Positions 829 through 11,831 of a stretch of DNA of 11,831 bases are shown piece by piece. The notes beneath the pieces are model-generated. The model made no database searches, had not been told where the DNA came from, and saw nothing but the letters and a program-made list of their open reading frames with translations. Position 1 is the stretch's first letter. Each line of letters starts with the position of its first letter. The translations under genes and the position numbers were made by a program. This DNA is from Candidatus Pelagibacter sp. (lineage in GTDB: Bacteria > Pseudomonadota > Alphaproteobacteria > Pelagibacterales > Pelagibacteraceae). The stretch covers positions 1 through 11,831 of the forward strand of contig JAOJAE010000023.1 in assembly GCA_028227525.1 (NCBI GenBank), read 5' to 3'.

Positions 829-1029
829 ATGAACAAAGTATTAGATGACGTCTCTAAGAGTAATAATGAATTAAATGAAGTTAAAGATCCAAAAAAACTT
901 TGTGTTCACGATCTTAAACAAAAACTTAAGACAAAACAAAAAAGACAATTTATTAAAAATACAATTATTTTATCTTTTATAATTACTTTCTTTGGAGCAA
1001 TATCTCTTTTAATTTATCAAAGTCTCTAG
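829..1029 (+). CDS. Small single-helix membrane protein 2 (66 aa), paralog of the preceding gene
   Basis: Function unknown. The product has a polar N-terminus (1-25), a very basic segment with LKQKLKTKQKRQ (29-40), and a hydrophobic helix at about 45-62 followed by a short YQSL tail. This is the same plan as the upstream 69-aa protein. The spacing from LKQ to TII-x-S is identical, so a tandem duplication followed by divergence is the simplest reading. The likely topology is N-terminus inside with a C-terminal anchor. The last 21 bp overlap, tail to tail, the 3' end of the minus-strand Ldh2-family dehydrogenase gene, so transcripts from both sides would be complementary there. No enzyme or transporter motif is visible; the small size, basic linker and single helix would fit a membrane-associated modulator peptide, but that is a guess. 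Confidence 0.62.
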   Translation: MNKVLDDVSKSNNELNEVKDPKKLCVHDLKQKLKTKQKRQFIKNTIILSFIITFFGAISLLIYQSL

Positions 1030-2013
1030 ATCTTTTTTAATAATATCTGGTATTGAGATTTCTCTTTTAAGATTTTGTTTGTATCGATTAAATTTATTTT
1101 GTCCTGGGTACATTATTTCTTTAACACCTTTAATTTTTGGAAGTTTTTTAATTGTTTTAATATTATCTTTAATTCTTTGGTTATAATTTTTTTGAAATAA
1201 ATTTGCTTTAAAGGTTATAAATAAATGGCCAATATTTTGTGGACCAGAAAAATCATCAAAAGGATCTTTAACTCTTCCTGCATGATTACCTCCTGTTAAA
1301 ACACCACTTAAAATATCTACCATCCAAGCAAGACCCGAGCCTCTAAATCCTGCAATTGGAAGTTGAACACCTGCAAGTGCTTTTTTTGCATCAGTTGTAG
1401 GGTTGCCAGATTTATCTAAAGCTACACCTTCAGGAATTGTTTGTTTGTTTCTAGCAGCAACTCTAATTTTACCTCTATTTATAACAGAGATTGATGTATC
1501 TAATATAAATGGAATTTTAGATCCAGTAGGGGTTCCAAAACAAACAGGATTTGTTCCAAACAAAGATTTTAAAGCACCATGTGGAGCAACAGCAGGAGGT
1601 GCATTTGTATAAATCATTGCAATTAAATTTTTCTTAACAGCTTGTTCTGCATAATAACCTGACAAACCATAGTGACCGCTGTTTTTAACTGCAACCATTC
1701 CAATACCAGTTTTTTGAGCATGTTTAATTGCAGTTTTAATTCCAAGATCTGCTGCAACAAAACCAATACTATTATTTGCATCAATATGTGAAATAGATTG
1801 AGAAATTTTCTTTATTTTAATTTTAGGTTTTGGATTAATTACTTTTTTTGAAATTCTATCACAGTACATCTTAAGTCTTGCTAGGCCGTGCCCATAGGCA
1901 CCAACTAATTCTGCATTAATTAATGCATTAGCTGAAATCAAAGCGTGATCTTTGCTTAGACCATATTTTTGAAAGATTTTTATGATTTCTTTTTTAAGAA
2001 TTGGGGTTTTCAC
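1009..2013 (-). CDS. Ldh2/malate-lactate-sulfolactate dehydrogenase family NAD(P)-dependent oxidoreductase
   Basis: A 334-aa member of the Ldh2/MDH2 family, whose members reduce or oxidise 2-hydroxy acids (malate, lactate, ureidoglycolate, sulfolactate) with NAD(P)H. Family marks: AYGHGLARLK with His42, NSGHYGLSGYYA with His114, GTNPVCFGTP at 153-162, LDTS at 171-174, EGVALD followed by GNPTTDA, and GSGLAWMVDILSGVLTGG. Length is normal. Where many relatives read G-G-[YV]-K-G in the late glycine-rich segment, this one reads AGFRG, with Arg224 at the usual lysine position (from memory of the family). It starts with GTG, 2 nt after the permease stop and behind an AAAGGG ribosome site, so it is the last gene of the transporter operon. 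Its place next to taurine-type import makes a sulfonated hydroxy acid a plausible substrate (ComC-type sulfolactate dehydrogenases belong to this family), but malate or lactate cannot be excluded. Confidence 0.85.
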   Translation of the reverse strand: MKTPILKKEIIKIFQKYGLSKDHALISANALINAELVGAYGHGLARLKMYCDRISKKVINPKPKIKIKKISQSISHIDANNSIGFVAADLGIKTAIKHAQKTGIGMVAVKNSGHYGLSGYYAEQAVKKNLIAMIYTNAPPAVAPHGALKSLFGTNPVCFGTPTGSKIPFILDTSISVINRGKIRVAARNKQTIPEGVALDKSGNPTTDAKKALAGVQLPIAGFRGSGLAWMVDILSGVLTGGNHAGRVKDPFDDFSGPQNIGHLFITFKANLFQKNYNQRIKDNIKTIKKLPKIKGVKEIMYPGQNKFNRYKQNLKREISIPDIIKKDLETLIN

Positions 2014-2015
2014 GA

Positions 2016-2822
2016 TTACCCTTTACCACGCCATGGAATATATTTGTCTATAAGTTTTCTTAAAGTTACATCAAATAATAAACCAAGCATTCCCATCACA
2101 AAAATAGTGATCCAAATAACCTCATATTGGAAGTATTTTTTAGCTACGTTTTCAACAAAACCGATACCAGTAGTTCCTGCTAAAAACTCAGCAGCAACTA
2201 ATGTTCCCCAACACATACCAATTGCAACTCTAACACCAGTTAATATTTCAGGTAATGAGTTTGGAAATATTACATATCGAAGTATTTGCCATCTAGAAGC
2301 ACCTAATGAGTGAGATGCATGAATTTTCGATAATTGAGTACCTGACGCACCAGCTCTAGCTGAAATAATCATGATAGAAAAAGATACCATAAAAAGTAAA
2401 AATACTTTTCCAACGTTATCAATACCTAAAACAGATATGATAAGAGGAGCCCATGCAAGAGGGGGTACAGGTCTGTATAGTTCAATTAATGGATCAAAAA
2501 ATCCTTTTGCAAACCTATTTAGACCCATAAATAATCCTAAAGGTACACCAAATATAATTCCAAGAATTAAACCTAAGAATACTCTTAAAAAAGAGTCCCA
2601 TATATGACCCATTGGGACAGGTATTTTAAATAAATTAAATTCACCAGTTACTACACTTAAAACTTTACTTTTAAAGTTTGGTTCAACTACACCAAATTCA
2701 TTATGTACCGGATATTTGCCTGGTATGATATCTGCAATCCAATCAGGTAAGATAAAACCAACTATTTTACTTACATCCATCATCTCAAACCAAAGCAATG
2801 GGATATTTTTTAAATCCAACAC
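2016..2822 (-). CDS. tauC: Taurine-type ABC transporter permease (TauC-like)
   Basis: Inner-membrane permease of an organosulfonate importer in the TauC/SsuC family. The core is very close to TauC in plan: GVPLGLFMGL, DPLIELYRPVPPLAWAPL, the coupling-helix region SLGASRWQILRYVIFP followed by LPEILTGVRVAIGM, and WGTLVAAEFLAGTTGIGF. At the N-terminus the first membrane helix and LPxP linker expected of TauC are absent; the protein goes quickly to a soluble stretch (about 20-75) and then the second canonical helix. The missing pieces seem to be in the preceding 380-aa frame. Start choice is uncertain: GTG at 2822 gives 268 aa and overlaps the upstream gene by 38 bp, with no clear ribosome site. 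ATG at 2783 lies 1 nt after the upstream TGA stop and would suit reinitiation (255 aa). It is followed 2 nt later by the dehydrogenase gene. Confidence 0.85.
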   Translation of the reverse strand: MLDLKNIPLLWFEMMDVSKIVGFILPDWIADIIPGKYPVHNEFGVVEPNFKSKVLSVVTGEFNLFKIPVPMGHIWDSFLRVFLGLILGIIFGVPLGLFMGLNRFAKGFFDPLIELYRPVPPLAWAPLIISVLGIDNVGKVFLLFMVSFSIMIISARAGASGTQLSKIHASHSLGASRWQILRYVIFPNSLPEILTGVRVAIGMCWGTLVAAEFLAGTTGIGFVENVAKKYFQYEVIWITIFVMGMLGLLFDVTLRKLIDKYIPWRGKG

Positions 2823-3927
2823 TAGGTTTTGATAAAAGGATAAATTTACTTAGTGTATCAGATGGTTTGGGTAACCATCTACCCGAACCTTGTTCTGAAC
2901 AATTTGGACCACTCGATACAATCGTACCTGCTGGAAATAAAAGAATATCAACTAATCTTAATGATCCTTGCTCATTTTTTTGAACTTCATCAAATGTTAA
3001 TATAGATTTTTGCATTCCATCTAATGTGCTTGGAGGAAAAATACTTGCGTATTCAATTCTTCTTGCAATTTTAAGAACATCTTTCGCTAAGGTTGATGCA
3101 ACTTCCTCACTATCACTTGCTGCTTTTCTAAATGCTTTAACATCATCTTTAATTTCTTTGATAACTGATTTGTATTGGAAGTTATGATTTTTTAATTTAA
3201 AGAATTGATCGCTAATAACTTTTAATTCTTGAGCAGCTGCGTCAAATTTTAAACCTTTATCTGTTTTAGGAATTACTGGTACTTCAACTGTATTTTCTAC
3301 CGCAGTTCCTGATGCACCCCAACCACCTTCAGCTTGAGCGTCTTGTAATCTTTTACTTCTTTGTTCTGCTGTTTCATATGGATAATCTTTTTTTTGAAAT
3401 TCTATGGATAATTGATCAATTTTATTTGCAAGCTCACTTATTTTAACTTTTGTTTCATTATCTAATAAATTTTCATTAGTTAGTAATGGAATAGTTGATT
3501 TTGTTTTATCAATTAATCCTATTAAAAAAGATCTATGCTGTTCACTTATTTCTTTTGAATTTTGAATTTCATTTTTAAGCTTAATTATATTTTTATTTTC
3601 AGATTTAATTATAGACGTACTTTTGAATTCTCTTTCTTCAATAGGGAATAGATATTTTAATGATAATAAAGAGTCGTTTACTTTACCTACTTGACATAAT
3701 TCATTAGCTGATTGTGGGTAAAATGATTTTGCAATATCCCATGAATAATAAAGCCATGTTAATAGAATGACACTACTACCAACAATGATCCAGTGAGTTC
3801 CACCTTTTGCTCTCTCAGGGTTACCAAAAACTGCATCAACTTTCTCAGTTCTGATAAGTTTTCGCCCATACATAATGCAACCGATGATGGCTACAATAAT
3901 TGCAAAGGTGATAAATTGAGTAAACAT
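2785..3927 (-). CDS. Transporter-associated membrane protein; likely N-terminal part of a split TauC permease
   Basis: A 380-aa protein between the ATPase and permease genes. Two hydrophobic helices are near the N-terminus (about 2-20 and 46-62), the second reading WIIVGSSVILLTWLYYSWDI, much like the first helix of TauC-type permeases. A long, charged, probably periplasmic and largely helical region follows (about 80-310), with a glycine/valine break near 205-220 and two cysteines, one in NELCQVGK and one in SGPNCSEQG. The C-terminal 35 residues contain GRWLPKPSDTLSKFILL, which resembles the periplasmic LPxPxxVL segment that normally follows the first helix of TauC/SsuC. It starts 1 nt after the tauB stop (TAG-T-ATG), so translation is coupled, and its end overlaps the permease gene. 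I infer it supplies the missing N-terminus of the permease, carrying a large periplasmic insertion. If instead separate, it is an accessory subunit of unknown role. Confidence 0.8.
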   Translation of the reverse strand: MFTQFITFAIIVAIIGCIMYGRKLIRTEKVDAVFGNPERAKGGTHWIIVGSSVILLTWLYYSWDIAKSFYPQSANELCQVGKVNDSLLSLKYLFPIEEREFKSTSIIKSENKNIIKLKNEIQNSKEISEQHRSFLIGLIDKTKSTIPLLTNENLLDNETKVKISELANKIDQLSIEFQKKDYPYETAEQRSKRLQDAQAEGGWGASGTAVENTVEVPVIPKTDKGLKFDAAAQELKVISDQFFKLKNHNFQYKSVIKEIKDDVKAFRKAASDSEEVASTLAKDVLKIARRIEYASIFPPSTLDGMQKSILTFDEVQKNEQGSLRLVDILLFPAGTIVSSGPNCSEQGSGRWLPKPSDTLSKFILLSKPSVGFKKYPIALV

Positions 3928-3928
3928 A

Positions 3929-4726
3929 CTATAATTCTTTACCCATAATTTCTTCTTCCATGTTCCATATCATGGTTAAAATCTCTTCTCTTTTGCTAGT
4001 AAAATCTTTTAAGTTTTTAATTTCTCTTAAATCTTCTTTTAATCCCATAGATGCAAATGGAAGATTGTACTCTTTATGAATTCTTCCAGGTCTTGGTGCC
4101 ATTACATAAAGTCTTTCACCAAGTAACAATGCTTCTTCAACTGAGTGTGTAATTAAGATAATTGTTTTTCCAGTTTCTTTCCAAATTTTTAAAACTAACG
4201 ACTGCATTTTTTCTCTAGTGAGTGCATCTAGAGCTCCTAATGGCTCATCCATTAAAATTAAATCTGGATCATTTATCAAACATCTTGCAAGAGCAACTCT
4301 TTGCTGCATACCTCCTGATAATTGGTATGTTGGAGTATTCCCAAACCCTTGAAGACCAACTATTTCTAACCATTCTTCAACTTTTTTTGCAGTTTCAATT
4401 GGATCTTCTTTTTTCATTCTTAATCCAAAATTCACATTTTCAGCAACTGTTAACCATTCAAATAAAGCACCTTGTTGAAATACCATTCCTCGTTCAACAC
4501 CTGGTCCATTAATTTCATTATTACCCAATGTTATTTGTCCAGAAGTTGGTCTTAAAAATCCTGCTGTAATATTTAGTAAAGTTGTTTTCCCACATCCAGA
4601 AGGGCCAAGAACTGTTAAAAGTTCTCCTTTTTTTAAAGTAAAATTTACATCTTTTAATGCGTGAACAGTTTCTCCTTTAGGAGTTTTAAAAATCATATTT
4701 AGATTTTGTGAAACCAAATCACTCAT
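3929..4726 (-). CDS. tauB: Taurine-type ABC transporter ATP-binding protein (TauB/SsuB-like)
   Basis: Cytoplasmic ATPase of 265 aa that powers the importer. All nucleotide-binding motifs are present and in order: Walker A GPSGCGKTT (41-49), Q-loop MVFQQGALFEWLTV (81-94), signature LSGGMQQR (136-143), Walker B LILMDEP (156-162, Glu161), D-loop GALD (164-167) and H-loop His194 in ITHSVEEA. The adjacent MAPRPGRI and the FQQ..LFEWLTVAENV segment are typical of the TauB/SsuB/NrtD group. Length is normal. The gene lies 88 bp downstream of tauA with an intrinsic terminator between them, and 1 nt before the next gene. Substrate cannot be read from the ATPase; the taurine call rests on the binding protein, the permease core and the aminotransferase next door. 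Confidence 0.93.
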   Translation of the reverse strand: MSDLVSQNLNMIFKTPKGETVHALKDVNFTLKKGELLTVLGPSGCGKTTLLNITAGFLRPTSGQITLGNNEINGPGVERGMVFQQGALFEWLTVAENVNFGLRMKKEDPIETAKKVEEWLEIVGLQGFGNTPTYQLSGGMQQRVALARCLINDPDLILMDEPLGALDALTREKMQSLVLKIWKETGKTIILITHSVEEALLLGERLYVMAPRPGRIHKEYNLPFASMGLKEDLREIKNLKDFTSKREEILTMIWNMEEEIMGKEL

Positions 4727-4814: not shown

Positions 4815-5756
4815 TTATAGAGGTAAAAAGCTTGTATCAACTGCTCCGTTAGGAGTATCCATTCCTTTTAAGAAACCAGCAAGGTTTCCAGAAGTCATAG
4901 ACTTTTCAGTTTCTGCAGGTGTTAGAAATTTAAATCCACCGATTGTTTCTTTCATATCACCAAGTTTCATTTCAGCGTCTTTTGCTATTACGTTCATATC
5001 TGATTTACCAGACGCGTATCTAGCGTTTGCTTCGTGAGTTACTTCGATGAAAGTTCTTAACATACCAGGATTTTCTTTCATGAACTTGTCAGTTACAGAT
5101 GTAATATCAATACCTAAGATACCAGCATCTCTAGCTTCTTGAACAGTTAAAAGTCTTGATCCAACTGCAGTTGCAGCTTTGATAGAGTTACCACCAAATA
5201 GACAAGCCATAACAACGTCACCACTTACTAATGCAGCAGCACCTTCTTCTGGGTCCATTTGAATAACATCCATTTTAGATCTGTCAGCTCCAATAACTTT
5301 CATACTTTCGTCAAAAACGTATTCAGCCATTGTTCCTAGTGGAACTGCAACTTTTTTGCCTTCTAACTCAGAACCATTTGCTTTTGTAATTCCAGAAGCA
5401 TTAGATGTAACACAAGTTGTTCCACCCATTCCGTATTCCATAGCAATGTCTACAAGTTTTAAAGGAGCTTTTGATTTAACAGCATTAATGAAAGGTACTA
5501 AACCTTGTGAGTAAGAAATATCAATATCTCCTGCTAACATAGCATCAGTCATTGCACCACCATTTGAAAAGTTAGTCCATTTAACTGGAACACCTAGAGC
5601 TTTTTCGTAAATACCTTTAACTTTATCTTCTTGGTTTGGCGTTGGCCATTCTAGAAAGAATGCAACTCTTACTTCTTTAGCAGCTGAATTAGCAACTGAC
5701 ATAGAAAGGGTAAGAGCAACTACTGAACCAAGAATAAAACTTAATATTTTTTTCAT
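4815..5756 (-). CDS. tauA: Taurine-type ABC transporter periplasmic substrate-binding protein (TauA-like)
   Basis: A 313-aa periplasmic binding protein that delivers substrate to the TauBC complex. The N-terminus MKKILSFILGSVVALTLSMSV is a clear signal peptide; cleavage near NSA|AKE (about residue 25) is likely. The mature part follows the TauA/SsuA plan: a first strand VRVAFFLEWPT, the NGGAMTDAMLAGDIDISYSQ segment (target-site-by-dosage motif of this family), ELEGKKVAVPLGT, then EEGAAALVSGDVVMACLFGG, and late SVTDKFMKENPGMLRTFIEV. Length is close to E. coli TauA. The start is supported by a good ribosome site AGGGG (5768-5764) 7 nt before ATG. A hairpin terminator follows it. Divergent placement from an omega-amino-acid aminotransferase supports taurine or a related amino-sulfonate or omega-amino acid as the ligand, but the binding pocket cannot be judged here. 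Confidence 0.9.
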   Translation of the reverse strand: MKKILSFILGSVVALTLSMSVANSAAKEVRVAFFLEWPTPNQEDKVKGIYEKALGVPVKWTNFSNGGAMTDAMLAGDIDISYSQGLVPFINAVKSKAPLKLVDIAMEYGMGGTTCVTSNASGITKANGSELEGKKVAVPLGTMAEYVFDESMKVIGADRSKMDVIQMDPEEGAAALVSGDVVMACLFGGNSIKAATAVGSRLLTVQEARDAGILGIDITSVTDKFMKENPGMLRTFIEVTHEANARYASGKSDMNVIAKDAEMKLGDMKETIGGFKFLTPAETEKSMTSGNLAGFLKGMDTPNGAVDTSFLPL

Positions 5757-5946: not shown

Positions 5947-7293
5947 ATGAGCTCAGAGAACAGAACTTCAGTACCAAATTCTTTAAATGAACATTGGATG
6001 CCATTTACATCTAACAAAGATTTTAAAGCAAATCCGAGATTAATAACTGAAGCTAAAGGAGTTTATTTAAAGACACACCACGGTAAAACACAAATTGATG
6101 CAAGTTCAGGATTATTTTGTAATCCATTGGGTCATGGAAGAAAAGAAATTACAGAAGCTGTAACAAAACAATTAGAAACATTAGATTATGCTCAACCTTT
6201 CCAGCAAGGTTTTGGTGGATCATTTGAATTAGCTTCAAAAATTGCAAAACATACACCAGGTGATTTAAACAAAATGTTTTTTACAATTTGTGGATCAACT
6301 GCTGTTGAAACTGCAATTAAAATTGCTGTTGCATATCATAGAGCGAAGGGAGACGCACAAAGATTTAGATTTGTAGGACGTGAAAGAGGTTATCACGGAA
6401 TGAACATTGGATGTGTTTCAGTAGGTGGAATGGTTAACAATGTTAAAACATTTGCAAGTATTTTAATGCCTGGTGTTCAACACATTAGACACACCCATTT
6501 ACCAGAACATAAATTTGTAAGCGGTCAACCGGAGACAGGTGATTATCTTGCAAATGATCTTGAGACTATTTGTGCAAACTTTGGTGGAGAAAATATTGCA
6601 GCATGTATCGTTGAACCTATTGCAGGATCAACAGGAACATTAGTTCCACCAAAAGGATACTTACAAAAACTTAGAGAGATTTGTGACAAACATGGAATAC
6701 TTTTAATCTTTGATGAAGTAATCACTGGTTGGGGTAGAACAGGATCTAAGTTTGGTGCAGATGAATTTGGTGTAACTCCTGATATTATGACAATGGCAAA
6801 AGCTACAACTAATGGTGTTGTACCTATGGGTGTTGTTGCTTGTAATGATTATATTTATGATGCAGTGATGGATGCTTCACCAACAGGAGCGGTTGAATTA
6901 TTTCATGGTTATACTTATTCTGGAATTCCAGTTGCAGTAGCTGCAGCTTTAGCTGTTCAAGATATTTTCGAAAAAGATGACATTTTTAACAGAGCAAAAA
7001 ATTTAGCTCCATATTTTCAAAAAGGTTTATTTTCTCTTCAAGATTTAGAGTCGGTAGATAATATTAGAGGATATGGAATGATGGGTGGTATTGATATGAA
7101 ATTAAATACCAAACCAGGTAAAGCTGGTTATGAGTGTTTTAAAGCTTGTTATGAAGCAGGTGTAAATTTTAAAGCAACTGGTGACTGTTTGATTATTGCT
7201 CCACAATTTATTTGTGAAGAAAAACATATTGATGAAATTATTGATAAACTTAGAACAGGTATCACTAACTATCAAAAAAACCAAAAAAACTAA
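5947..7293 (+). CDS. tpa: Class III omega-amino-acid:pyruvate aminotransferase, probable taurine:pyruvate aminotransferase
   Basis: PLP-dependent cytoplasmic enzyme of 448 aa. In this context it should transfer the amino group of taurine (or beta-alanine/hypotaurine) to pyruvate, giving alanine and sulfoacetaldehyde (or the matching semialdehyde). Visible marks: EHWMPFTSNKDFK near the N-terminus, typical of the omega-amino-acid:pyruvate group; CGSTAVETAIK (115-125) for phosphate binding; GYHG (148-151) for PLP stacking; IFDEVITGWGRTG (254-266) with Asp256 contacting the ring nitrogen; MAKATTNGVVPMG (283-295) with Lys285 as the Schiff-base lysine; and FHGYTYSGIPVA. All catalytic residues are kept. 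The ATG follows GAGAG (5934-5938). It is divergent from tauA and 36 bp upstream of alanine dehydrogenase. Sequence alone fits beta-alanine:pyruvate aminotransferase at least as well; the taurine call comes from the neighbours. Confidence 0.85.
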   Translation: MSSENRTSVPNSLNEHWMPFTSNKDFKANPRLITEAKGVYLKTHHGKTQIDASSGLFCNPLGHGRKEITEAVTKQLETLDYAQPFQQGFGGSFELASKIAKHTPGDLNKMFFTICGSTAVETAIKIAVAYHRAKGDAQRFRFVGRERGYHGMNIGCVSVGGMVNNVKTFASILMPGVQHIRHTHLPEHKFVSGQPETGDYLANDLETICANFGGENIAACIVEPIAGSTGTLVPPKGYLQKLREICDKHGILLIFDEVITGWGRTGSKFGADEFGVTPDIMTMAKATTNGVVPMGVVACNDYIYDAVMDASPTGAVELFHGYTYSGIPVAVAAALAVQDIFEKDDIFNRAKNLAPYFQKGLFSLQDLESVDNIRGYGMMGGIDMKLNTKPGKAGYECFKACYEAGVNFKATGDCLIIAPQFICEEKHIDEIIDKLRTGITNYQKNQKN

Positions 7294-7329: not shown

Positions 7330-8448
7330 ATGAAGATAGGCGTACCTAAGGAAATCAAACCACAAGAAAATAGAATTGGTTTAACACCTGAAAGTGTAAA
7401 AACATTAGTTTCAGAAGGTCATGAAGTAATTGTTGAAAACAATGGTGGTTTTGAAGCTGGTTTTGAAAATGACCAATATACTAATGTAGGTGCAAAAATT
7501 GCAAGTACTGCTGCTGATATTTTTAACGATGCAGAAATTATAGTTAAAGTTAAGGAGCCTCAAAAAGTTGAAGTAGATATGATTAGAGAAAATCAAATCG
7601 TCTACACTTATCTTCATCTTGCTGCTGCTAAAGAGCTAACTGAAGGATTGATTAAATCTAAAAGTATTAATATCGCATATGAAACAGTAACAGATGATAA
7701 TGGAAGATTACCTTTACTTGCACCAATGAGTGCTGTTGCAGGAAGGATGTCGGTTCAAGCTGGAGCTCATTGTCTTGAGAAAAATCAAAAAGGAAGAGGA
7801 CTTTTATTAGGTGGTGCACCAGGAGTAACTGGTGGAACAGTTGTTATTTTAGGTGGAGGAGTTGTTGGAGAAAATGCAGCTGTGATTGCAACTGGTATGC
7901 AAGCAAAGGTTCATATTGTTGATAAATCTGAAGCAAGATTAAAACAACTTGTTGAAATGTTTGGTGACAAAATAATTCCAGAGCAAAGTGATAAAATTGA
8001 TTTAAATAAATTAGTTTCTGAAGCTGATCTTTTAGTTGGTGGTGTCTTAATTCCAGGAGCAGAAGCTCCAAAATTGGTTACTAAAGAAATGATTAAATTA
8101 ATGAAAAGGGGATCAGTTATAGTTGATGTTGCAATTGATCAAGGTGGATGTGTTGAGACAAGTAAACCAACTACCCATGGTGATCCAACATATATCGTTG
8201 ATGATGTAGTTCATTATTGTGTAGCAAATATGCCTGGTGGTGTTCCAAGAACTTCAACACTTGCATTAAATAATGCAACTTTACCTTTTTTAGTTAAACT
8301 TGCTAACAAGGGATATCAAAAAGCTTTAGGTGAAGATAAAAATTTTTTAGCTGGCTTAAATGTTCATAAAGGTCATGTAACATACAAAGCAGTAGCAGAT
8401 GTTTTTAATCATGAATTTGTTGAACCTGAGAAAGCAATTCTAAATTAA
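7330..8448 (+). CDS. ald: Alanine dehydrogenase
   Basis: NAD-dependent L-alanine dehydrogenase of 372 aa, the usual length, converting alanine to pyruvate, ammonium and NADH. The start MKIGVPKEIKPQENRIGLTP is the family signature, with Arg15 in the substrate site. Lys75 (in VKVKEP) and His96 (in YTYLHLAA) match the catalytic lysine and histidine of characterised enzymes; the nucleotide site GGGVVG is at 175-180 with Asp198 at the end of the second strand; Asp270 lies in VDVAIDQGG. Nothing is missing. A weak AAGAG (7316-7320) precedes ATG. The gene follows the aminotransferase by 36 bp, probably as one operon, and closes its cycle: alanine made by transamination is turned back into the pyruvate acceptor while nitrogen is freed as ammonium. 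Its stop is 4 bp from the convergent galE stop. Confidence 0.96.
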   Translation: MKIGVPKEIKPQENRIGLTPESVKTLVSEGHEVIVENNGGFEAGFENDQYTNVGAKIASTAADIFNDAEIIVKVKEPQKVEVDMIRENQIVYTYLHLAAAKELTEGLIKSKSINIAYETVTDDNGRLPLLAPMSAVAGRMSVQAGAHCLEKNQKGRGLLLGGAPGVTGGTVVILGGGVVGENAAVIATGMQAKVHIVDKSEARLKQLVEMFGDKIIPEQSDKIDLNKLVSEADLLVGGVLIPGAEAPKLVTKEMIKLMKRGSVIVDVAIDQGGCVETSKPTTHGDPTYIVDDVVHYCVANMPGGVPRTSTLALNNATLPFLVKLANKGYQKALGEDKNFLAGLNVHKGHVTYKAVADVFNHEFVEPEKAILN

Positions 8449-9480: not shown

Positions 9481-11831
9481 ATGAATAACAAAGAATTACC
9501 GAGAAGTACTAAAGTTATTGTGATTGGTGGAGGAGTTGCTGGATGTTCTGTTGCTTATCATTTGGCAAAATTTGGATGGAAAGACACAATACTTCTTGAA
9601 AGAGATCAGTTAACATCAGGTACCACTTGGCATGCTGCTGGGTTAGTTGGACAATTAGGTGCAACTGCTACAATTACAAAACTTAGAAAATATTCACTTA
9701 ATCTCTATAAAGAATTAGAGCAAAAAACTGAACTTTCAACAGGGCTTAAACAAAATGGTGCGATTACTGTTGCAAGTTCAAAAGAAAGACTTCAAGAATT
9801 ATTAAGGCAAGCAACATCAGCTCAACTTTTTGATGTTAATGTTGAAGTTCTTAATAAACAAAAAGTTAAAGAATTATATCCAGTAATTAATGACAAGGAT
9901 ATTTTGGGTGGTGTTTATATGCCAGAAGATGGTCAAGCGGATCCAGTAGGGGTTACTAATGTCTTAGCAAAAGCTGCTAGAATGGAGGGTGCTCAAATAT
10001 TTGAAAAAACACCTGTTACTAAAATACTTATAAAAAATAATAAAATAACTGGTGTTGAAACATCTGAGGGAAAAATTCAGTGTGAATATGTAGTTCTTGC
10101 AACTGGAATGTGGTCAAGACAAATTGGTGAAGATATTGGTGTTAGTGTGCCTTTATATCCAAATGAGCATTTTTATATAATTACCGAACCAATGAAAGAT
10201 CTACCAAAAGATCTACCAGTTTTAAGAGATTATAATGATTGTCTTTATTTAAAAGAAGATGCAGGAAAAATGCTTGTTGGTATTTTTGAGCCAGGCGCAA
10301 AAAATGCTTTTAAAGAAAAAGGGGTTGTTCCAAATGATTTTTCTTTTGGAGAGTTTCCAGATGATTTTGATCATTTTGAACCCTATTTAGAAAAATCTTT
10401 TAAAAGATTACCAATGTTAGAAACAGCAGGTGTTAGAAAATTTTTTTCAGGGCCAGAGTCGTTTACACCTGACACTCAATATTTATTAGGAGAAACTCCA
10501 GAAGTTAACAATCTTTATACGTGTTGTGGTTTTAATAGTATTGGTATTGCAAGTTCTGGTGGAGCGGGACGAGTTACAGCAGAATGGATGATTAACGGAT
10601 ATATGAATGAGGATTTATATTCATTAGATATAAAAAGATTTCAAAAATTTCATTCTTCTAAAAAATTTATAATGAATAGGGTTACAGAAACTTTGGGAGA
10701 TTTGTATGATATGCATTGGCCCTATAAACAACACATAACTTCAAGAGATCAAAAATTACTTCCATACCATGAAGAATTAAAAAAAGCAGGAGCATGTTTT
10801 GGTCAATCAGGAGAGTATGAAAGACCCATGTGGTATGCTTTAAATGGCACTAAGCGAGAGTACAATTATAGTTTTAATTATCAAAATTGGTATCCATCAG
10901 TTGAGCATGAATGCAAAAATACAATTGAAAATGTTGGATTGTTTGAACTTTCTCCTTTTTCAAAATATGAAATTAAAGGTGAAAAAGCATATAAAGAATT
11001 ACAAAGATTGTGTACCGCAAATATTAAAAATGAAATTGGAAAATGTACTTATACCCATATGCTTAATGAAGGAGCTGGAATTGAAACAGATCTAACGGTT
11101 GTTTGTCTTGAAAAAAATCATTTTAGAATAATAAGTTCTGCAGCAGTTAGAACTCATGATAAAGCACACATATTAAAATATTTATCAAAGGATCTTGAAT
11201 TTAAAGATATTACAGATGACTTAGTTTGCTTAGGTGTATTTGGACCAAAAAGTAGAGAATTATTATCAAAAATAACTGCAGAAGATTTTACAAATGAAAA
11301 TTTTAAATTTGGTACAGGTAAAAATATAAATCTAAATTCAATTGATGTTTGGGCTCAAAGACTATCCTATGTTGGTGAACTTGGTTATGAGCTTTATATT
11401 AAAAAAGAAAACGCTAAAGAAATATATGATTTAATTGTCGATACTGGAAAAGATTTTAGTCTTACTCATTGTGGCTCTCATGCTATGGATACAATGAGAA
11501 TGGAAAGTGGTTTTTTACATTGGGGACATGATATTTCACCAGAAGAAAATCAGTATCAAGCAGGACTTAATTTCGCAATTAGCTACAAAAAACCTTTTGA
11601 TTTTGTAGGAAAAGAAAAGTTGCTAAAAATTAGAGATCAAAAATTAGACCGAAGATTTGTTATGTTAGTTTTAAAAGATAATACACCTGGAAAACCACTT
11701 TTATTGCACGAAGAACCAATTTACTTTGATGATAAAATTATTGGAAAAACAACATCGGGAAATTTTTCATTTAATTATAATAAAAATTTATCATTTGGTT
11801 ATGTAAATTGTGAACTTTCAAATGAAAAACT
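9481..11831 (+). CDS. Dimethylglycine/sarcosine dehydrogenase-like FAD-GcvT oxidoreductase (3' end cut off)
   Basis: The open frame runs from ATG 9481 to the right edge, 783 full codons, without a stop; relatives are a little over 800 aa, so only a short tail is missing. Residues about 11-390 form a DAO-type FAD domain: VIGGGVAG (14-21), acidic end of the second strand at Glu40, and TTWHAAGL (48-55), where His51 matches the histidine that carries covalent FAD in dimethylglycine and sarcosine dehydrogenases. FSGPESFTPDTQ (322-333) and CGFNSIGIASSGGAGR (509-type tail of the FAD fold, near 349-364) follow. From about 430 onward is a GcvT/aminomethyl-folate domain with YVGELGYELYI (630-640) and GHDISPEENQYQAGL (682-696). 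The family oxidatively demethylates N-methylated glycines and passes the one-carbon unit to tetrahydrofolate. Exact substrate is not readable; the pairing with glycine betaine breakdown is inference, since no neighbour in view confirms it. Confidence 0.88.
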   Translation, partial: MNNKELPRSTKVIVIGGGVAGCSVAYHLAKFGWKDTILLERDQLTSGTTWHAAGLVGQLGATATITKLRKYSLNLYKELEQKTELSTGLKQNGAITVASSKERLQELLRQATSAQLFDVNVEVLNKQKVKELYPVINDKDILGGVYMPEDGQADPVGVTNVLAKAARMEGAQIFEKTPVTKILIKNNKITGVETSEGKIQCEYVVLATGMWSRQIGEDIGVSVPLYPNEHFYIITEPMKDLPKDLPVLRDYNDCLYLKEDAGKMLVGIFEPGAKNAFKEKGVVPNDFSFGEFPDDFDHFEPYLEKSFKRLPMLETAGVRKFFSGPESFTPDTQYLLGETPEVNNLYTCCGFNSIGIASSGGAGRVTAEWMINGYMNEDLYSLDIKRFQKFHSSKKFIMNRVTETLGDLYDMHWPYKQHITSRDQKLLPYHEELKKAGACFGQSGEYERPMWYALNGTKREYNYSFNYQNWYPSVEHECKNTIENVGLFELSPFSKYEIKGEKAYKELQRLCTANIKNEIGKCTYTHMLNEGAGIETDLTVVCLEKNHFRIISSAAVRTHDKAHILKYLSKDLEFKDITDDLVCLGVFGPKSRELLSKITAEDFTNENFKFGTGKNINLNSIDVWAQRLSYVGELGYELYIKKENAKEIYDLIVDTGKDFSLTHCGSHAMDTMRMESGFLHWGHDISPEENQYQAGLNFAISYKKPFDFVGKEKLLKIRDQKLDRRFVMLVLKDNTPGKPLLLHEEPIYFDDKIIGKTTSGNFSFNYNKNLSFGYVNCELSNEK

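Follow-up and report, generated by a model that had tools for sequence, protein, structure and literature searches.

The question raised by this locus is whether the permease of a bacterial taurine importer can be made in two pieces. The DNA analysed (hereafter the window) is a stretch of 11,831 nucleotides from Candidatus Pelagibacter sp. (contig JAOJAE010000023.1, assembly GCA_028227525.1), which carries a locus of Pelagibacterales type, where tauA, tauB and a tauC-like gene all lie on the minus strand. At the place of tauC, two open reading frames (ORFs) of 380 and 268 amino acids (aa) overlap by 38 bases in different frames, as the preliminary description of this DNA had noted; that description had taken the permease to be truly split. 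We read the two ORFs instead, with a probability of about 0.85, as the tauC gene of a SAR11 tauABC operon carrying one extra base in a run of A, whose product is a TauC/NrtB-like permease of a type I importer, extended by two insertions that are here called A and B. The parts of the gene are listed below (TM, transmembrane helix; AF2, AlphaFold2; L002, an intact relative).

2785..3927, minus strand: N-terminal piece of tauC, the 380-aa ORF (ATG start), with TM0, TM1, insertion A and the LPxP-type linker
3844..3924, minus strand: TM0, extra N-terminal helix, residues 2-28 (hydropathy; AF2 helix 2-28 of L002; alignment)
3742..3798, minus strand: TM1, residues 44-62, after FGNPERAKGG (alignment; AF2 helix 44-61 of L002)
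2881..3741, minus strand: insertion A, ~285 residues, predicted helical domain with a beta hairpin at its end (AF2; alignment)
3694..3696, minus strand: Cys78 (NELCQV), invariant in 45/45 representatives
2899..2901, minus strand: Cys343 (before EQGSGRWLPKP), invariant in 45/45 representatives
2833..2880, minus strand: RWLPKPSD linker, corresponding to that of short TauC (alignment)
2806..2811, minus strand: run of six A (coding strand), site of the frame change; homologous run of at most five A in 80/80 loci
2612..2832, minus strand: insertion B, ~70 residues, from linker to core, with the frame change near its start (alignment)
2016..2822, minus strand: C-terminal piece of tauC, the 268-aa ORF (GTG start), which holds insertion B and the core of the type I importer permease
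2016..2611, minus strand: permease core, HIWDS... to ...IPWRGKG, BPD_transp_1 (Pfam, NCBIfam)

The evidence for one gene comes from its relatives. A search of genome contigs returned at least 596 pattern matches, 481 of them encoding a relative, and the best 80 loci were used for the counts at the junction. In all 80 the gene is a single unbroken ORF, of 636 aa (9 loci), 637 aa (3) or 641 aa (68). The longest run of A at the junction is five in 75 of these loci and two or three in the other five, against six in the window, and it is this longer run that shifts the frame. The tauC stretch of the window measures 1912 bases, i.e. 637 codons plus one base, and the final six residues of the 380-aa ORF lie beyond the A run, in the shifted frame. 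When the halves were compared separately with four relatives, a rough ratio of non-synonymous to synonymous substitution rates (Ka/Ks) of 0.06-0.10 was obtained for insertion A and of 0.03-0.04 for the core, i.e. both are strongly conserved; it follows that either the gene was whole until very recently or the sequence is wrong. Judged from the sequences compared, the split is a sequencing or assembly error or a very recent mutation, not biology, and cells of this population very probably produce a single chain of 636 aa.

Two other explanations of the overlapping frames were weighed against this single-gene reading. A genuine two-chain permease, in which the core and the piece with TM1 and the insertion are made separately and then assembled, would find support in the fact that both ORFs are open and that the core ORF has a GTG start within the overlap, but it is at odds with the single ORF of all 80 loci. 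It is equally at odds with the sample of the order Pelagibacterales (the order of the Pelagibacteraceae genome L025; 147 genomes, some of them probably incomplete), in which 71 of the 76 genomes that match at E<=1e-80 have a stop-free match over positions 1-636. Of the remaining five, three (G886, G922, G897) are cut off by a contig end, one (G894) has a shift close to the C-terminus and one (G842) is a chimera. The likelihood of a two-chain permease is close to nil. The full chain could also be produced by recoding, with the A6 as a site of transcriptional or ribosomal slippage. In an AT-rich genome such a tract is conceivable, and a one-base shift is what would be needed; however, A6 is found at the junction in none of the 80 loci, and runs of 6-9 A or T are present and read through in tauC and in all seven neighbour genes scanned, so that we consider recoding quite improbable.

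At the protein level, the 380-aa piece used as query matched 5953 proteins at E<=0.001 among 7998 scored candidates. Among the 120 matches listed, 100 are 635-636 aa long and 20 differ in length; we take these 20 as putative assembly errors. Of 23 listed matches that were inspected, 19 continue into the permease core, while four (P0010, P0012, P0040 and P0052) stop inside insertion B, which is neutral evidence; no clear case of a homologue away from permeases, which the preliminary description had named as counter-evidence, was seen among them. Only one of the 76 Pelagibacterales matches lacks the core, through a chimeric join to the aminotransferase gene tpa (see below). Single-chain homologues spanning both pieces, for which the preliminary description had proposed a search, therefore exist, and its view that the two pieces belong to one permease was borne out, even though the true split that it envisaged fails against the 80 unbroken loci.

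None of the ten closest proteins among the matches listed (P0001-P0010; 91-96% identity over the 380-aa piece) reaches 636 aa; several look frameshifted, at differing places, and some lie on contigs of 33-171 kb. Errors of assembly, in a region that is conserved from strain to strain, are the probable cause of these short forms. Gene decay as the cause of the short listed forms was set aside, because several of those inspected by eye end in shifted frames at varying places. P0014 has an adapter-like tail at its end.

The architecture of the intact chain was derived from an alignment of six long TauC with eight short TauC from other genomes. The FG-motif, TM1, the linker and the core are common to both, and the long form has in addition insertion A (between TM1 and the linker), insertion B (between the linker and the core) and the N-terminal helix TM0, which is without counterpart as such in the eight short proteins; chain length is 636-644 aa in most long relatives, compared with 288-333 aa in the short proteins. 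The FGNPERAKGG segment ahead of TM1 aligns with FGDA.. of short TauC. It should be noted that the TM1 segment lies under the hydropathy cut of 1.4, and that TM1 was called from the alignment together with the AF2 helix. The preliminary description had correctly recognized a TauC-like first helix in the 380-aa protein (in our analysis ~44-62, aligned with TM1 of short TauC), had singled out the segment GRWLPKPSDTLSKFILL, which does align with the linker of short TauC, and had seen that the 268-aa ORF is without TM1 and linker. It had overlooked the further helix at residues 2-28, and the ~250-residue insertion that it placed after the first helix, while indeed large, measures ~285 residues and is joined by the second one of ~70 after the linker.

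In L002, insertion B corresponds to residues 366-437; its stretch 375-393, with a hydropathy of 1.46 that is barely above the cut, may touch the membrane. Three of the eight short TauC (S127-S129) also carry an insertion at the position of insertion B, which is smaller there and contains cysteine. Considering the topology of TM1 and the positively charged loop before it, insertions A and B should be on the periplasmic side.

As for the core, the 268-aa piece matched BPD_transp_1 (PF00528) with an E value of 3.2e-25 and 89.4 bits, over a gathering threshold of 26.4. Its best NCBIfam match was TauC (NF007545, positions 79-273 of 275), with 185 bits against a cut-off of 342, the 268-aa piece only being scored. 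The long form is like TauC in the ~200-residue core, TM1, the linker and an operon with TauA and TauB, whereas it adds two insertions and an N-terminal helix to the 275 positions of the model. The fold was assessed on the core of the L002 model, rather than on the window's own core, and Foldseek matched it to CmpB (2.8e-8), NrtB (1.8e-6), MetI (4e-4) and also OpuA. The closest solved structures, by sequence and fold, are thus those of the cyanobacterial nitrate and bicarbonate permeases NrtB and CmpB (8w9m and 9u9z; E 1.6e-21 and 3.5e-21 with the relative P0020). These proteins, however, are only ~280 aa long, and the matched stretches start at 442-444 of the long chain; there is therefore no counterpart to insertions A and B in them.

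Modelled alone with AF2, insertion A gave a mean predicted local distance difference test (pLDDT) score of 82.3 and a predicted template modelling (pTM) score of 0.77, with twelve helices of at least four residues and a low-confidence hairpin. Its residues Cys78 and Cys343 presumably form a disulfide. Fixed patterns for the two cysteines were matched in 113 and 116 of 117 loci, and all five misses are included among the 45 representatives in which both residues are invariant; outside Pelagibacterales insertion A is only 27-33% identical to that of the window, and yet the two cysteines are retained. No convincing family for insertion A was found in Pfam or NCBIfam. When 46 insertion rows were compared with Pfam at E<=1, the matches were scattered over families; CALCOCO1 appeared in 15 of the rows, IFT20 in 12, and the top single values were 1.3e-4 for LRS4 (one row), 7.7e-4 for CALCOCO1 and 8.3e-4 for Rv2743c. 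From the scan alone, all these families were judged to be matches to coiled-coil composition and were rejected.

The genes around tauC are the following.

4815..5756, minus strand: tauA, substrate-binding protein of SsuA/TauA type (Pfam/NCBIfam profiles)
3929..4726, minus strand: tauB, ATPase, one base upstream of tauC (Pfam/NCBIfam profiles)
1009..2013, minus strand: Ldh_2-family dehydrogenase, downstream of tauC (profile match)
5947..7293, plus strand: omega-aminotransferase, divergent from tauA (NCBIfam)
7330..8448, plus strand: alanine dehydrogenase, ald (NCBIfam)

The profile matches, like the gene order in relatives, place tauC in one operon with tauB and the gene of a binding protein of TauA type. 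In NCBIfam, the TauB model (7.7e-80) and the TauA-type model TIGR01729 (5e-22) were both matched under their equivalog cut-offs, and in 114 of the 117 long loci TauB comes immediately before TauC, while the remaining three begin at a contig end. The aminotransferase gene, likely that of taurine--pyruvate aminotransferase (tpa), is divergent in 72 of 80 SAR11 loci, and the Ldh_2-family gene lies downstream of tauC in 57 of 80. Taurine would be the substrate of the importer, which the omega-aminotransferase and alanine dehydrogenase neighbours fit. The top NCBIfam model for 1009-2013 is L-sulfolactate dehydrogenase, under its cut-off, and a role of this dehydrogenase in sulfonate use is possible. 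The products of tauB, the Ldh_2 gene, the aminotransferase gene, ald and galE align nearly end to end with their best profiles, which shows that the window is not generally broken. In addition, an open-ended FAD oxidoreductase/GcvT-like fusion (9481-11829) adjoins galE, and two small neighbouring ORFs (506-766 and 829-1029) code for peptides that end alike, in a basic stretch and then a hydrophobic helix.

The long form extends beyond Pelagibacterales. In a second order, 46 of 136 genomes match, 39 of them from position <=15 to 635-636 (one with an internal TAG) and seven partially; in a third order, 7 of 11 genomes match, all across 2-636. The class-level sample contained the full-length form in 6 of 289 genomes, with open frames of 641-652 aa, the next best match covering 440-636 only, and in the phylum-wide sample one genome of 398 matched at E<=1e-80, namely the centre genome itself; in many genomes of these two samples at most four and at most three candidates, respectively, were scored, so that the long form may be missed there. 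The long chain of L087 is matched by 1295 plasmid records, none of which covers 80% of it. In a tree of the core with 18 long and 8 short rows, all the long rows fall on one side of a branch with a support of 100/100.

Two records from these samples deserve mention. In the chimera of G842 (L142, 419-1828), tauC is fused after residue ~434 to the C-terminal end of the normally divergent tpa, likely an amplification or assembly artefact. G690, one of the 46 matching genomes of the second order, is a metagenome-assembled genome with a SAR11-like tauC on a contig of 7065 bases; its locus L141 and L003 are the same DNA across the stretches compared, and L003 is 93% like the window in the N-terminal piece. 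The contig is probably a mis-binned SAR11 contig.

As regards the function of insertion A, the P2 segment of MalF is the known arrangement that comes nearest to it in place and size. MalF likewise has extra N-terminal helices, and its P2 follows the helix equivalent to TM1; contact between MalF-P2 and MalE reportedly persists through the catalytic cycle, to go by the title of a paper cited in work on the maltose importer. In that work itself, MalF-P2 (MalF residues 91-271) is described as having antiparallel beta-sheets and loops and as containing a segment that directly contacts MalE (PMC3150292). Both are large insertions in a type I importer permease, periplasmic in MalF and presumably so in TauC; they differ in that MalF-P2 has beta-sheets, whereas insertion A, of ~285 residues, is predicted to be helical and would be present on both chains if TauC is a homodimer. 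OpuA and GlnPQ are also ABC (ATP-binding cassette) importers with extracytoplasmic domains on the permease chain, but those domains are substrate-binding domains, while long TauC has a separate TauA and its insert is predicted to be all-helical.

On this analogy, we tentatively favour insertion A as a docking or gating arm for the binding protein. With two TauC chains per importer, two arms would stand beside the docking face of TauA, where they could take hold of loaded TauA or orient it, and link its docking with opening; MalF-P2 may have such a role towards MalE. More speculatively, the long form might define a distinct class of taurine importers with a single origin in marine Alphaproteobacteria, in which a pair of disulfide-closed, all-helical arms clamps or recruits taurine-loaded TauA, i.e. 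an independent, two-fold symmetric, alpha-helical counterpart of MalF-P2. Alternatively, the insertion could be a structural arm that makes no contact with TauA and serves either to pair importers as dimers or to tie them to peptidoglycan or some other partner in the envelope. The coiled-coil-like helices and the fast change of insertion A (in 24 SAR11 loci its mean pairwise difference is 0.295, that of the core 0.048) would fit such a surface scaffold, but nothing specific speaks for it and the invariant R..KST, WG and Cys positions suggest a defined surface, which leaves it doubtful. That the insertion is not a docking arm but senses a ligand and thereby regulates the importer, in the manner of the helical bimodular sensor domains of chemoreceptors (McpS) and of TorS, appears unlikely.

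Several observations weigh against the interpretation given here. The frameshift may be a real but recent mutation rather than an error; the model of the full L002 chain is moderate (pTM 0.56); and the tree program warned that long branches meet at the split between long and short forms. As for docking, TauA does not differ sharply between the two systems, its identity to that of the window being 47-54% in long and 23-47% in short systems. With Tpa as control (24 loci), the partial distance correlation was 0.40 between insert and TauA (1/500 permutations as high), 0.39 between insert and TauB (0/500) and 0.64 between insert and core; with Ldh2 as control (20 loci), it was 0.26 for TauA (21/500) and 0.37 for Ldh2 itself (1/500). 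Because TauB, which cannot touch the insert, and Ldh2 correlate comparably, the signal between insert and TauA is not specific.

The overlapping frames are in themselves ordinary, and so is the lesson of the window, in which a homopolymer indel divided one gene in two; what lies behind them is the permease of a type I taurine importer, which carries an extra domain not described so far. No description of the long TauC or of its insertion was found in titles and abstract openings, subscription papers lying mostly outside the search. In surface Atlantic waters, a large part of the cells taking up taurine belong to SAR11 (PMC6647121). About half of the sampled genomes of Pelagibacterales, which are very abundant bacteria of the ocean, carry a permease with a domain unnamed in the family libraries searched, and capture models derived from the TauABC of E. 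coli would miss nearly half of the permease chain. This affects uptake kinetics, the recruitment of the binding protein and any annotation that expects a TauC of 275 aa; if the paired arms are real, they would possibly be suited to scavenging taurine at very low concentration.
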